Positions 1,471-4,943 of a stretch of DNA of 6,001 nucleotides are shown here, one piece after another. Source of the stretch: Methanomassiliicoccales archaeon (GTDB lineage: Archaea; Thermoplasmatota; Thermoplasmata; Methanomassiliicoccales; UBA472). The notes beneath the pieces are model-generated. The model was not told where the DNA came from, searched no databases, and saw only the letters and a program-made list of their open reading frames with translations. The position numbers were made by a program, and so were the translations under genes. The stretch's first letter is position 1, and each line of letters begins with the position of its first letter. The stretch is taken from NCBI GenBank assembly GCA_013329565.1, contig DUJZ01000066.1, forward strand, positions 1-6,001, read 5' to 3'.

Positions 1471-2454
1471 ATGCCAGGAGACCAGAGCGAGGCCAACGAG
1501 GAAGAGGTTTTCGAGTTCGACTGCCCCGAGTGCGGCAAGCATATCGTGGGCGAGGCGGACAAGTGCCCGGGCTGCGGCACGGAGTTCGTCATCGAGGAAG
1601 TGCCGATGGTGGATTGCCAGTCCTGCGGCGAGGCCTGCCCGCTGGAATCCGATGTATGTCCTTCGTGCGGCAAGAGCCTGGTGGACGAGGGCGAGGACGA
1701 GCTTCGTCAGGAGTTCCCCAGGCTGGTGGCCGAAGTGAAGCCGCTGCTGATGATCTCGAAGGACTACGGGGTGGAGGTCGGGGAAGGCCGCCGCCTCATA
1801 GACAAGGCCGTACAGGCAGGAAAGCAGAGGGACCTGGCCACCGCGGTGCAGATGGTCAAGGAGGCCCGCTCCTCCATCAAGGCCGCGCTGGACGAAAAGC
1901 TGGTCGCTGAAGAGAGCAACCTGGAGAAGCTGGTGGAGATAGTCTCCCGCTCCGGCGTCGACCCCAAGGAGGTCTCCGGATCCCTGTCGGCGTTGCGAAG
2001 TCTGCGCGAGGAGGGGGACGTGGAGGGCGCCCTGCGGGCAGCGGTCAAGGGCCGCAAGGCCGCGGAGCGCTCCTCGGGGAAATACCTGGAGGCGAACGAC
2101 ATGGTGGAATCGCTGTCCCGACTGATCGACGTGTGCGACCAGTTCTATCTGGACTCCCGGGAGGCCAAGCGCATGCTGAACGAGGCCCGGGACGCCGGGG
2201 ACCACGGCGACTGGGGGATGATGGGCATCCTGTCTCGCAAAGGCCGCGAGCAGCTGATGCGGGCGCTGCCGGAAGCGACCAAGAGCGAGATGCGGAAGGC
2301 GAAGAACCAGCTTCTGGACGCCAAGACCGAAGGCAAGGACGTGCGCACCCTGGTGAAGGTCCTCAAGGACGCGGGAGTGGCGATGAACCGCGAGCGCTAC
2401 GATCAGGCGTTGGAACGCCTCTCGGACTTCAAGGACGAGCTCAAGCGGCTTTAA
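1471..2454 (+). CDS. Double zinc-ribbon protein with a four-repeat helical region; function unknown
   Basis: The 327-residue product opens with a short acidic leader. Two four-cysteine zinc ribbons follow, each with CxxC knuckles: Cys18/21 with Cys32/35, and Cys49/52 with Cys63/66 (an extra Cys is at 56). From about residue 83 to the end it is charged and predicted helical. I see four degenerate units of about 55-60 residues: roughly 83-144, 149-206, 211-270 and 273-327. Each has a helix, then a Gly-Val/Asp turn, a Leu-rich helix ending near Ala-Gly or Glu-Gly, and a final helix with an A/L-x-x-A/K pattern. It has no signal peptide or membrane segment and is probably cytosolic. Zinc ribbons followed by long helical regions usually mean a scaffold or a nucleic-acid or protein adaptor, but I do not recognise a named family. 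Its stop codon overlaps that of the convergent DUF835 gene, so there is no room for a separate terminator between them. Confidence 0.8.
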   Translation: MPGDQSEANEEEVFEFDCPECGKHIVGEADKCPGCGTEFVIEEVPMVDCQSCGEACPLESDVCPSCGKSLVDEGEDELRQEFPRLVAEVKPLLMISKDYGVEVGEGRRLIDKAVQAGKQRDLATAVQMVKEARSSIKAALDEKLVAEESNLEKLVEIVSRSGVDPKEVSGSLSALRSLREEGDVEGALRAAVKGRKAAERSSGKYLEANDMVESLSRLIDVCDQFYLDSREAKRMLNEARDAGDHGDWGMMGILSRKGREQLMRALPEATKSEMRKAKNQLLDAKTEGKDVRTLVKVLKDAGVAMNRERYDQALERLSDFKDELKRL

Positions 2455-3458
2455 CGTTCCCGCACCAAGCGCATCTCCCTCTCCAGTATCGAGCGTTCCT
2501 GCGCGCTGAGGCTGGCCGGGTCTATTGACAACAGGAACAGGGCCTGCTTTTCGCTGATGCGGTCCACCAGCGACCGGATGAAGCGCAGCGCCCCTTCGAA
2601 CGAATTGCTGCTTATGAGGTACTGCAGGTCATCGATCAGTATGACCGCGTTCTCCTGCCGCTCCATGAACTCTTCCAGCACCACCACGATCTTCTCCAGG
2701 GATGGGGGGATGGTCCGTTCCGCCTCCGATTCGTGGTCCGTGAGCCAAATAAGCTCGGCCTCGATCTCGTTGTAGGACTTGCGCAGCAGTCGCGGGTTGG
2801 TACGAGATATCGCCAGTCCGGCGTACCCTTTGGCCAGGTAGCCGACGAAGATGCCGTGCGAGAAGTCCCGGGACCGCTCCTCCACCAGGTAGCTCTCTCC
2901 ATCGTCCAGCTCCAGCTCCACGTCCCGCAGGTCGCGCTTGCCGGCCATCTCCAGCGATTTTTCGCGGTGGTACTTCATGATGGCCTGCTTGAGCTCCAGG
3001 ATGCTGGCTCCTTCCCCCGATCCCTCGCCGGCGCTCTCCACCCGCAGGTTGTCGCGGTAGAAGTGCATGATGAACTCGGTGAGGTCGGGCGCCCGGTCCT
3101 GCCGATAGTCCTCGATGAGAGTTGCCAGAGCGTTGCGGTCGGCGACCCTCATCAGGGTTATCGACGTGTCGGGGAATATCGAATCGCCCAGGGTGAACTC
3201 CGCCGCTCGCTCCCCGCGGTACATCATCTCCACGCTGTTGTTGCCGGAGGGTTTGAAGCTGTAAAGAGCGACGGTCGGCGATCCCTGATCGAACACCAGC
3301 ACTCCGTTGGACGAATCTCCGTCCAGGGTCAGAACGGTGCGCAGATACCCGGTGAACTCTCCCTTCTTGATGGTGTCCAAAAGCTCACGGAGCGAGGCCT
3401 GCCCGCCCTTGCGCTCTTCCACTTTCTCCGCGGACGGCAGACGCATCTCAGAAATCAT
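2451..3458 (-). CDS. DUF835-domain protein with an N-terminal DUF4388/DUF2226-like region
   Basis: This is a 335-residue protein. From about residue 188 it matches the archaeal DUF835 domain: YLVEERSRDF, then GLAISRTNPRLLRKSY (214-229), IWLTDHES (237-244), ILIDDLQYLISSNSFE (273-288), and a final helix with SIDPASLSAQERSILERE. The DUF835 pattern of an SRT-NP motif and a buried I-L-I-D-D-L-Q-Y-L-I strand is clear. The fold resembles a P-loop-less RecA/KaiC-like core, and the domain often ends archaeal signalling proteins, but its activity is unknown. Residues 20-105 (SLRELLDTIKKGEFTGYLR, then GVLVFDQGSPTVALYSF) resemble the DUF4388/DUF2226 type of small sensor domain seen in archaeal and bacterial regulators. 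A Gly/Ser/Glu-rich linker spans about 141-150. The ATG at 3458 has an AGGGT 4 nt upstream, and a second ATG at 3446 is possible. A TATA element about 36 nt upstream fits a very short leader. It is probably a cytosolic regulatory or scaffold protein. Confidence 0.82.
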   Translation of the reverse strand: MISEMRLPSAEKVEERKGGQASLRELLDTIKKGEFTGYLRTVLTLDGDSSNGVLVFDQGSPTVALYSFKPSGNNSVEMMYRGERAAEFTLGDSIFPDTSITLMRVADRNALATLIEDYRQDRAPDLTEFIMHFYRDNLRVESAGEGSGEGASILELKQAIMKYHREKSLEMAGKRDLRDVELELDDGESYLVEERSRDFSHGIFVGYLAKGYAGLAISRTNPRLLRKSYNEIEAELIWLTDHESEAERTIPPSLEKIVVVLEEFMERQENAVILIDDLQYLISSNSFEGALRFIRSLVDRISEKQALFLLSIDPASLSAQERSILEREMRLVRER

Positions 3459-3518: not shown

Positions 3519-3529
3519 AAATTTTAAAT
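3519..3529 (+). promoter_or_regulatory. TATA-box promoter of the tRNA-Thr gene
   Basis: AAATTTTAAAT is preceded by purine-rich GAAACAAC, which could act as the TFB recognition element (BRE). The TATA centre lies about 32 nt upstream of the first tRNA base, so transcription would start roughly 5-6 nt before the mature 5' end. Such a short leader is common for archaeal tRNA genes. Confidence 0.65.
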
Positions 3530-3556: not shown

Positions 3557-3653
3557 GCCACTGTAGCTCAGCGGTAGCCCCTTCACGGGGCCGCTATAGA
3601 GCGGCGGTTTCGTAAACCGCAGGCCGGGGGTTCAATACCCTCCAGTGGCTCCA
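3557..3653 (+). tRNA. tRNA-Thr (anticodon CGT) with a D-loop intron
   Basis: All arms can be drawn by hand. The acceptor stem GCCACTG (3557-3563) pairs perfectly with CAGTGGC (3643-3649). The discriminator is T at 3650, typical of archaeal tRNA-Thr, and CCA is encoded at 3651-3653. The D stem is GCTC (3566-3569) with GAGC (3599-3602). The anticodon stem GCGGT/ACCGC (3604-3608/3616-3620) holds the 7-nt loop TTCGTAA with anticodon CGT at 3611-3613, which reads ACG. The variable loop is 5 nt. The T stem is 3626-3630/3638-3642 with one G-T pair, and the loop is TTCAATA. The only abnormality is a D-loop of 29 nt, where about 7 is expected. Removing 22 nt restores an AGCGGTA loop and a standard 72-nt body. 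The gene has its own upstream TATA box and converges on thiC, ending one base before the thiC stop codon. Confidence 0.93.
3577..3598 (+). other. Noncanonical tRNA intron (about 22 nt) in the D-arm, within a bulge-helix-bulge fold
   Basis: The extra D-loop bases fold with the exon. The D stem (3566-3569 with 3599-3602) forms the outer helix. AGCGG (3570-3574) pairs with CCGCT (3591-3595) as the central helix. CCCC (3578-3581) pairs with GGGG (3587-3590) as the intron hairpin, with loop TTCAC. Three-base bulges, TAG at 3575-3577 and ATA at 3596-3598, lie on opposite strands on either side of the central helix, the arrangement cut by archaeal splicing endonuclease. TAG occurs at both edges (3575-3577 and 3597-3599), so a 22-nt intron could be drawn in four registers. 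I chose the one starting after the second base of the first bulge. Cleavage after 3597 instead would leave one more A in the D-loop. Confidence 0.78.
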
Positions 3654-3654
3654 T

Positions 3655-4923
3655 TCATTCTTCCAGGTACTTCTGCACGAGCTTGATGGCGCACACGTCC
3701 CCGCACATCGAGCACCCCTCGTCCTCGGCGGTATCTCCGCGCTTGCGGTATCTCCGCGCCTTCTCCGGATCGATCGCTTCCCGGTACATCGCTTCCCAGT
3801 CCAGCCTCTTGCGCGCCCGGGCCATGCGCTCGTCGCGTTCCGCCCCGCGGCCTAACGCGAGATCTGCGGCATGGGCCGCGATCTTGCTGGCGATGACCCC
3901 CTCCTTGACGTCCTCCACGTCCGGAAGGGACAGATGCTCGGCCGGCGTGACGTAGCAAAGGAAGTCCGCCCCGGCGAAGGCGGCGATCGCCCCACCGATG
4001 GCCCCGACGATGTGATCGTATCCGGGGGCGATGTCCGTGACGAGGGGACCGAGCACGTAGAACGGCGCGTTGTCGCAGACGCGCTTCTCCAGGAGGACGT
4101 TGGCCTGTATCTGTGACATGGGAACGTGACCGGGGCCTTCCACCATGCATTGCACGCCAGCTTCGCGGCAGCGCTGCACCAGTTCGCCGAGGATGATCAG
4201 TTCCTGGACCTGCGCTCTGTCGGTGGCGTCGGCCACGCATCCCGGGCGCAGTCCATCGCCAAGGCTGAGGGCGAACTCGTACTTCTGCGCCAGCTCCAGC
4301 AGGTAGTCGAAGTTCTCGTAGAGCGGGTTCTCCATCTTGTTGTGCAGGATCCAGGCGGTGAGGAACGATCCGCCGCGGGAGACGACGTCGGTGAGGCGGC
4401 CGGAGTTCCGGAGGCGCGAGACCGATTCCAAGGTGATGCCGCAATGGACGGTCATGAAGTCCACGCCGTCCTTGGCGTGACGCTCGATCCCGGAGAACAT
4501 ATCATCCTCGTCCATGTCCACCACCGCGCTGCGCCGGGCGGCGCGCAGGCCTTCCTGGTAGATCGGAACGGTTCCGACAGGCACCCGGACCTCCTTGAGT
4601 ATCGTCCGGCGAATGGCGTCCACGTCCCCGCCGGTGCTGAGGTCCATGATGGCGTCCGCGCCGTACTTGACGGCTACCCGGGCCTTCTCCAGCTCCGGCT
4701 CCAGGTCCGGGAGGTCCCTGGACGTGCCAACGTTGGCATTGATCTTTACGGTAAGGCCTTCCCCGATGGCGCACGGTTCCGGCGAATGAATTGGGTTGCA
4801 AGGGATGACCGCCCGGCCGGTGGCCAGCATCCTCCTGATCCACTCGGGGTCCGCCCCTTCGGCCTTGGCCGCCCTCCTGACCTCCTCCGAGGGACCGGCC
4901 CTCGCTTGGAACATTATGCTCAT
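3655..4923 (-). CDS. thiC: Phosphomethylpyrimidine synthase ThiC (thiamine biosynthesis), short archaeal form
   Basis: ThiC is a radical-SAM enzyme that rearranges aminoimidazole ribotide into HMP phosphate, the pyrimidine half of thiamine. This 422-residue copy lacks the extra N-terminal domain of bacterial forms of about 600 residues. Hallmarks are KINANVGTS (60-68), DLSTGGD (94-100), GTVPIYQ (117-123), TVHCGIT (158-164), SRGGSFL (182-188), [11 protein letters not shown] (219-229), EGPGHVP (262-268), [20 protein letters not shown] (285-304) and AEHLSLP (328-334). His266 and His330 fit the active-site metal ligands. The 4Fe-4S cysteines near the C-terminus are Cys404, Cys407 and Cys411, a CX2CX3C spacing. 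The frame extends upstream to a TTG at 4935, but the ATG at 4923 has GGTGG 5 nt upstream and starts like other short ThiC proteins. No TPP riboswitch is apparent upstream. It stands alone, diverging from gyrB and converging on the tRNA gene. Confidence 0.96.
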
Positions 4924-4943
4924 CGCCGCCACCAACCCGTTTT

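Follow-up and report, generated by a model that had tools for sequence, protein, structure and literature searches.

A tRNA-Thr(CGT) gene carrying 22 additional bases in its D-loop is located at positions 3557-3650 of the window, i.e. the complete stretch of 6,001 nucleotides analysed here, which originates from an uncultured archaeon related to the methanogen Methanomassiliicoccus. With respect to the predicted fold of the transcript and the comparison with homologous genes, these bases very probably constitute an intron at tRNA position 20/21 that would be excised by the endonuclease EndA from a strict bulge-helix-bulge (BHB) motif, followed by joining of the exons by RtcB into tRNA-Thr(CGU).

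The interrupted tRNA-Thr(CGT) gene

The Rfam tRNA model spans the gene over its full length with a score of 57 bits (gathering score 29) and treats 23 residues as an insertion into the D-loop. All four stems (acceptor, D, anticodon and T) are complete: the acceptor GCCACTG/CAGTGGC is followed by TA and the D stem GCTC/GAGC, the anticodon arm GCGGT-TTCGTAA-ACCGC, the variable loop AGGCC and the T arm GGGGG-TTCAATA-CCCTC, after which T73 and an encoded CCA end complete the gene (Table 1). The Rfam match and the intact stems bear out the original prediction of a tRNA-Thr(CGT) that is complete save for 22 extra bases in the D-loop. ARAGORN, run with the bacterial code, reported no tRNA anywhere in the window. 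A split or permuted tRNA gene was rejected, as the 94 bases hold both halves in order, and the location of the insert at position 20/21 differs from that of canonical 37/38 introns, which are inserted one base 3' of the anticodon.

The convergently oriented thiC gene adjoins the tRNA gene on its 3' side. On the other side, a gene encoding a DUF835 protein (PF05763) extends from 2451 to 3458 on the reverse strand, and matches to this protein recur near the locus in many relatives. Inspection by eye additionally revealed the motif TTTTAAAT at positions 3522-3529, some 30 bases ahead of the tRNA gene, which might be an archaeal box A (TATA) element.

Table 1. Features of the tRNA-Thr(CGT) locus in the window, and loci of interrupted tRNA-Leu(CAA) genes
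Feature	Position or locus	Strand	Evidence
5' exon: acceptor 5' strand, T8 A9, D stem 5' strand, A14 G15 C16 G18 G19 T20	3557..3575	+	Rfam, cloverleaf reading
5' half of the D stem (GCTC), forming the outer BHB helix with 3599-3602	3566..3569	+	fold
Central helix 5' strand AGCG (14, 15, 16, 18), pairs with 3592-3595	3570..3573	+	fold, covariation
5' bulge GTA, predicted cut after 3575	3574..3576	+	fold; cut inferred
Predicted intron, 22 nt, tRNA position 20/21	3576..3597	+	fold, covariation, intact orthologues; cut sites inferred from BHB rule
5' half of the inner helix (GCCCC), paired to 3587-3591 (GGGGC); loop TTCAC 3582-3586	3577..3581	+	fold, covariation
Central helix 3' strand CGCT (within intron)	3592..3595	+	fold, covariation
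3' bulge ATA, predicted cut after 3597	3596..3598	+	fold; cut inferred
3' exon: A21 to discriminator base T73	3598..3650	+	Rfam, cloverleaf reading
Anticodon CGT (Thr)	3611..3613	+	cloverleaf reading
Encoded CCA end	3651..3653	+	sequence
thiC, convergent with the tRNA gene, conserved neighbour at the locus	3655..4935	-	PF01964, 637 bits; neighbours in relatives
Interrupted tRNA-Leu(CAA) genes	L335 (G041); L362-L374, L378-L386, L388, L389

Fold of the unspliced RNA and predicted splice sites

When the unspliced RNA was folded alone, the minimum free energy (MFE) structure and the centroid both corresponded to a strict BHB, which is composed of the D stem, a central helix of 4 bp, two bulges of 3 nt on opposite strands and an inner hairpin. 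The MFE of -48.3 kcal/mol compares with a mean of -34.2 kcal/mol (sd 3.18) for shuffled sequences (z -4.43), and none of 200 shuffles was as good. Archaeal EndA enzymes cut between the second and the third base of each bulge, and application of this rule to both bulges delimits a predicted intron of 22 nt. The D-loop AGCGGUA predicted after splicing is identical to that of most intact orthologues in family f2, and of some others.

In the proposed processing pathway, EndA would cut the BHB formed by the D stem, the exon bases 14 to 18 and the intron at these two sites, and the RtcB ligase would join the halves to yield an ordinary tRNA-Thr(CGU). The tRNA elbow would form only after splicing, since the central helix of the precursor engages A14, G15 and G18 in base pairs and G19 lies in a bulge.

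Covariation across interrupted homologues

A set of 57 distinct interrupted D-loops was compared in one fixed reading frame. All 57 sequences can form the central pairs 2, 3 and 4; central pair 1 is paired in 45, but is replaced by A14-G in the remaining 12, which counts against the intron interpretation. Central pair 3, involving position 16, is C-G in 55 sequences and T-A in two, indicating a joint change of one base in the exon and one in the intron. For the inner pairs 1, 2 and 3, pairing is seen in 57/57, 56/56 and 56/56 sequences, respectively, and none of 2000 shuffles was as good. As a control, the 3' side was shifted by one or two bases, whereupon 11 of 12 columns resembled their own shuffles; the exceptional column (inner pair 3, slid by -2, 29/52) was matched by 60 of the 2000 shuffles. 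On an EF-2 tree, inner pairs 1 to 3 change at least 6, 6 and 9 times among 32 genomes, and due to this recurrence their agreement does not reflect one inherited event. The 5' bulges read G-N-N throughout the set and the 3' bulges AAA, AGA, ATA or AAG, with single occurrences of ACA and CAA, while the length of the insert ranges from 13 to 31 nt around the constant core. The comparison with sister genomes that the original prediction had called for thus demonstrates that the BHB is kept in relatives by covarying sequences.

Some observations within the same set count against a uniform BHB. The five shortest inserts (13-16 nt) have an inner helix of only 1-3 bp, and the 13-nt insert of genome G179 from family f32, found with the same letters at locus L146, possesses the central helix with in effect no inner helix. 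The inserts of G179, a distant lineage (L154/L294), and of L146 are therefore better called bulge-helix-loop. Removal of the insert would leave G rather than A at position 21 in six of the 57 sequences. Unconstrained MFE folding of the 57 pre-tRNAs, a weak test, recovered the tested BHB pairs completely or with a single exception in 16 only. The cost of forcing the BHB on these pre-tRNAs had a median of 1.2 kcal/mol and a maximum of 5.6 kcal/mol, and amounted to at most 2 kcal/mol in 37 and at most 4 kcal/mol in 53 of them.

Distribution, copy number and genomic context

The spliced sequence was searched for in 61 genomes, comprising that of the window and 60 relatives, and in 150 genomes of the class, whose families carry the working labels f1 to f33. 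Among the 61 genomes, tRNA-Thr(CGT) is interrupted in 41 and intact in 16, and four were left unscored (G017 with a D arm consisting of N, G053 and G057 of f6 without a match to the CGT pattern, and G056 of f2 with an unread D arm). The interrupted form was detected in all ten members of the window's genus and in 10 of the 12 other members of f1, as well as in the single genomes of f3 and f4 (1/1 each), in f5 (6/6) and in f6 (13/15). The intact form is present in 15 of the 16 genomes of f2 and in G011 of f1.

The class sample added 16 of 17 genomes of f8, the seventeenth of which was not read, and both genomes of f24. A stricter pattern, which undercounts, yielded at least 19 interrupted genes among 389 genomes of the phylum, distributed over f1, f3, f5, f6, f8 and f32. 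Moreover, a scan of the GTDB r220 species genomes resulted in 49 loci, 36 of which are assigned to Thermoplasmatota by the NCBI taxonomy, including 22 from Methanomassiliicoccales; older labels, Euryarchaeota or Methanomicrobia, are attached to the remaining 13, each of which shares its whole D-loop with a G-numbered genome of the class. The carriers include UBA472, which falls within the window's genus (the D-loop of L123 equals that of G003), Methanomassiliicoccus sp. UBA6, MXMAG1, DTU008 and RumEn M1.

A pattern combining the CGT anticodon loop with the T arm matched once in 57 of the 61 genomes, twice in G018 and G038, and not at all in G053 and G057. The second match in G038 was rejected as a tRNA, as it has no anticodon stem. 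Accordingly, the search for a second, intact tRNA-Thr(CGT), whose presence beside a silent interrupted copy would have spoken against the original prediction, points to a single gene for this anticodon in 57 of 61 genomes. The genome of the window, which is 83% complete, additionally contains uninterrupted threonine tRNA genes for the anticodons TGT and GGT (L004, L005).

The thiC gene was found within the fetched flank of interrupted loci from f1, f3, f4, f5, f6 and f8, at a distance of about 1 kb in the latter family. It is also located near 10 of the 14 fetched intact loci of f2 and near the intact gene of G011. Since this neighbour is kept, the intact f2 genes accompanied by thiC very likely correspond to the interrupted gene of the other families at an identical locus.

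Splicing enzymes

The EndA protein encoded in the genome of the window comprises 347 amino acids, counted from a start codon that we selected, and contains two PF01974 domains; two such domain matches were detected in 32 of the 33 genomes searched. Among solved structures, 5x89 and the 305-amino-acid protein 1r0v are the closest relatives in sequence. In 3p1z_B, which we take to be EndA of A. pernix, 11 residues including K44, P45 and R46 (numbers counted from the alignment) are without counterpart in the C-terminal unit of the window's EndA, and an insert resembling this loop was not seen in any of the 30 aligned EndA sequences. K44, P45 and R46 are named as residues of the Crenarchaea-specific loop in a passage of PMC12397907. 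Archaeal endonucleases are further described, in the relevant section of PMC8707768, as recognising the BHB regardless of the domain of the mature tRNA and also in loops of the D arm, which fits a D-loop intron in the present gene. RtcB was detected in nine of nine genomes, the match in the genome of the window covering 283 of 426 positions.

The EndA alignment also revealed a difference in a stretch that is presumably close to the catalytic Lys. Four of the five sequences from the intron-free family f2 read SGGVKK at this place, and 24 of the 25 other rows have His (AHGVKK or AHGVRK), the last one having Gln. A link of this change in f2 with the loss of the intron is possible.

Alternative interpretations of the insert

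It is improbable that the intron is excised in the register of the original prediction, i.e. from a 5-bp helix AGCGG/CCGCU with the bulge UAG, cut one base further 3' and leaving an 8-nt D-loop. The G19 residue could indeed pair with D-loop base -8 in 56 of the 57 homologues (38 G-C and 18 G-U), but base -8 covaries with D-loop base 8 in all 57, this first inner pair being G-C in 38, A-T in 18 and C-G in one sequence; the 4-bp register is favoured because the same 3' base would have to pair with the never-varying G19 in the 5-bp register. Moreover, the MFE structure shows the 4-bp helix, and cleavage at UA|G and AU|A would result in one extra A in comparison with the D-loop of the f2 orthologues. 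Of the originally described fold, the D stem, the central helix, the inner hairpin and two 3-base bulges on opposite strands, including ATA, are retained, whereas the central helix, given as 4-5 bp, is narrowed to 4 bp (AGCG/CGCT) and the 5' bulge TAG is moved by one base to GTA, with G3577 outside the bulge in the inner helix. The mature sequence resulting from the junction 3575^3598 is identical to that from the junction 3576^3599 proposed before.

Persistence of the 22 bases after maturation, as a hairpin that enlarges the D arm, would be in line with the stable fold. This explanation is nevertheless highly improbable, as the strict 3-4-3 core of the BHB is kept while the inner hairpin varies in sequence and length, the exon bases 14 to 18 required for the elbow would be paired, intact orthologues have a plain D-loop of 7 nt and EndA is present. 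The window stems from a fragmented metagenome assembly with a completeness of 83%, from which a pseudogene or an insert created by an assembly error might arise, yet the insert recurs with covariation in many separate assemblies, the interrupted gene is the one CGT gene in most genomes and no damage is seen in its acceptor, anticodon and T stems, so that such an origin is extremely improbable. The reading as a D-arm BHB intron, already put forward in the original prediction, is supported by the strict fold, the covariation, the single CGT gene and the intact orthologues that display the spliced D-loop.

Probable gain and loss of the tRNA-Thr intron

The EF-2 tree was calculated for 68 genomes: 80 had been searched, ten without a whole EF-2 gene were excluded, and G198 and G077 were removed on account of their long branches. 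Over 59 scored rows, at least five changes are needed for the tRNA-Thr intron. The intact family f2 is nested within the order, with the interrupted G024 of f4 as its sister (support 100/99), and this position among interrupted families favours a loss in f2. The genome G011 is nested in f1 (support 99/96) and represents either a second loss or a rewriting of the gene, the latter being considered because the D arm and also the anticodon stem differ from those of its relatives. At the respective locus, L083, an intact tRNA-Thr(CGT) gene stands beside thiC and a DUF835-type gene, and its arm appears rewritten instead of merely freed from an intron.

The genomes read from f13 (two), f27 (one) and f31 (one) contain intact genes. 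The tRNA-Thr(CGT) gene of G100 from f25 (L246) is devoid of a D-loop insert and has extra bases in the anticodon loop resembling a canonical 37/38 intron. As f13, f27, f31 and f25 branch with modest support (89/70 and 81/94) between f8 and the order, the tree is compatible with a single gain followed by several losses as well as with independent gains in f8 and the order; f24 has no placement on this tree. The insert of the distant G179 is probably of separate origin. The most likely history is a gain of the intron within Thermoplasmatota, followed by free changes of the inner hairpin around the fixed 3-4-3 core and a clean loss in f2.

A second putative D-loop intron in tRNA-Leu(CAA)

Interrupted D-loops were also detected in tRNA-Leu(CAA), where 22 distinct sequences were collected from f3, f5 and f6 and from six members of the window's genus (Table 1). 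They share the form GGTC, bulge AAA/AAT, inner hairpin, GGCC/GACC/GATC and a second bulge AAA/AAT. The inner pairs covary, pair 2 being A-T in 15, G-C in six and G-T in one sequence, and pair 3 being T-A in 17 and C-G in five. Removal of the insert yields the D-loop of the intact genes in other genera of f1. An internal loop is present on the D-stem side, and the BHB is therefore less strict than that of tRNA-Thr(CGT). An intron of this kind was not found in the genome of the window, which is incomplete (83%).

Among the matches listed for G005, G015, G041 and G122, 20 long tRNAs other than tRNA-Thr(CGT) were inspected. One of them, the tRNA-Leu(CAA) of G041, contains an insert in the D arm; in the remaining 19, the anticodon stem comprises 5 bp and the additional bases lie in the anticodon loop.

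Comparison with known introns and significance

Neither BHB introns nor the position 20/21 are new, the latter appearing on a published list of non-canonical intron positions in the section of PMC4090602 concerned; what is new is the clade with this type of enzyme. According to a passage of the same review, Euryarchaeota, which have alpha4 or alpha2 endonucleases, possess tRNA introns solely at the canonical position. The alpha2 enzymes are called strict for canonical introns or canonical BHBs in parts of PMC4090602 and PMC4033280, which counts against the present interpretation, and non-canonical introns are tied in passages of PMC4033280 and PMC12397907 to enzymes of broad specificity with an extra loop. 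The non-canonical BHB introns of Crenarchaeota, Nanoarchaeota, Thaumarchaeota and others have in common with the tRNA-Thr intron a BHB at both splice sites, the position 20/21 and the restoration of a normal tRNA. In contrast, the host described here belongs to the Methanomassiliicoccales within Thermoplasmata, encodes a two-domain EndA without the Crenarchaea-specific loop and has few instead of many such introns per genome. Canonical 37/38 introns are present in other tRNAs of the same genomes and show the same succession of stem, 4-bp central helix, 3-nt bulges and inner helix, but are built on the anticodon arm and not on the D stem and D-loop.

The original prediction had regarded a D-arm intron as unusual for a euryarchaeon. 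The D-arm location holds, whereas its rarity is qualified by its conservation in many species and by a passage of PMC3218864 reporting non-canonical introns in three thermophilic euryarchaeal methanogens. Those introns likewise lie off position 37/38 in archaea formerly filed as euryarchaea, but in a lineage that differs from the present one, and neither species nor positions are specified in the passage. Korarchaeum, according to a section of PMC4033280 the sole alpha2 archaeon in which non-canonical introns occur, combines a homodimer-type EndA with introns at unusual positions. The EndA of K. cryptofilum is said there to share a specific loop with the (alpha-beta)2 enzymes, whereas the EndA described here has none at that place.

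Searches in listings of open-licence PMC papers did not reveal a D-loop intron of tRNA-Thr(CGT), and GtRNAdb may already list such genes. The BHB models of tRNAscan-SE 2.0 include euryarchaeal introns, as stated in an excerpt of PMC8450103, and this program may well annotate the present gene already. In contrast, tRNA finders without a BHB step can miss an interrupted gene, as ARAGORN did.

Tentatively, the data might be extended to a clade-wide D-loop intron system of the Methanomassiliicoccales and a neighbouring lineage of Thermoplasmata, in which a loop-less two-domain EndA would act on tRNA-Thr(CGU) and tRNA-Leu(CAA), the bases of the D-loop would be tied up in the precursor and splicing would serve as an obligatory folding checkpoint before finishing and charging, with several gains and clean losses of the introns; this wider scheme is less likely true than not. 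The intact family f2 with the same locus makes the loss of a tRNA intron traceable. The occurrence of D-loop introns with strict BHB geometry beside a loop-less two-domain EndA in this clade moreover suggests that such enzymes are limited by the shape of the BHB and not by its location within the tRNA.
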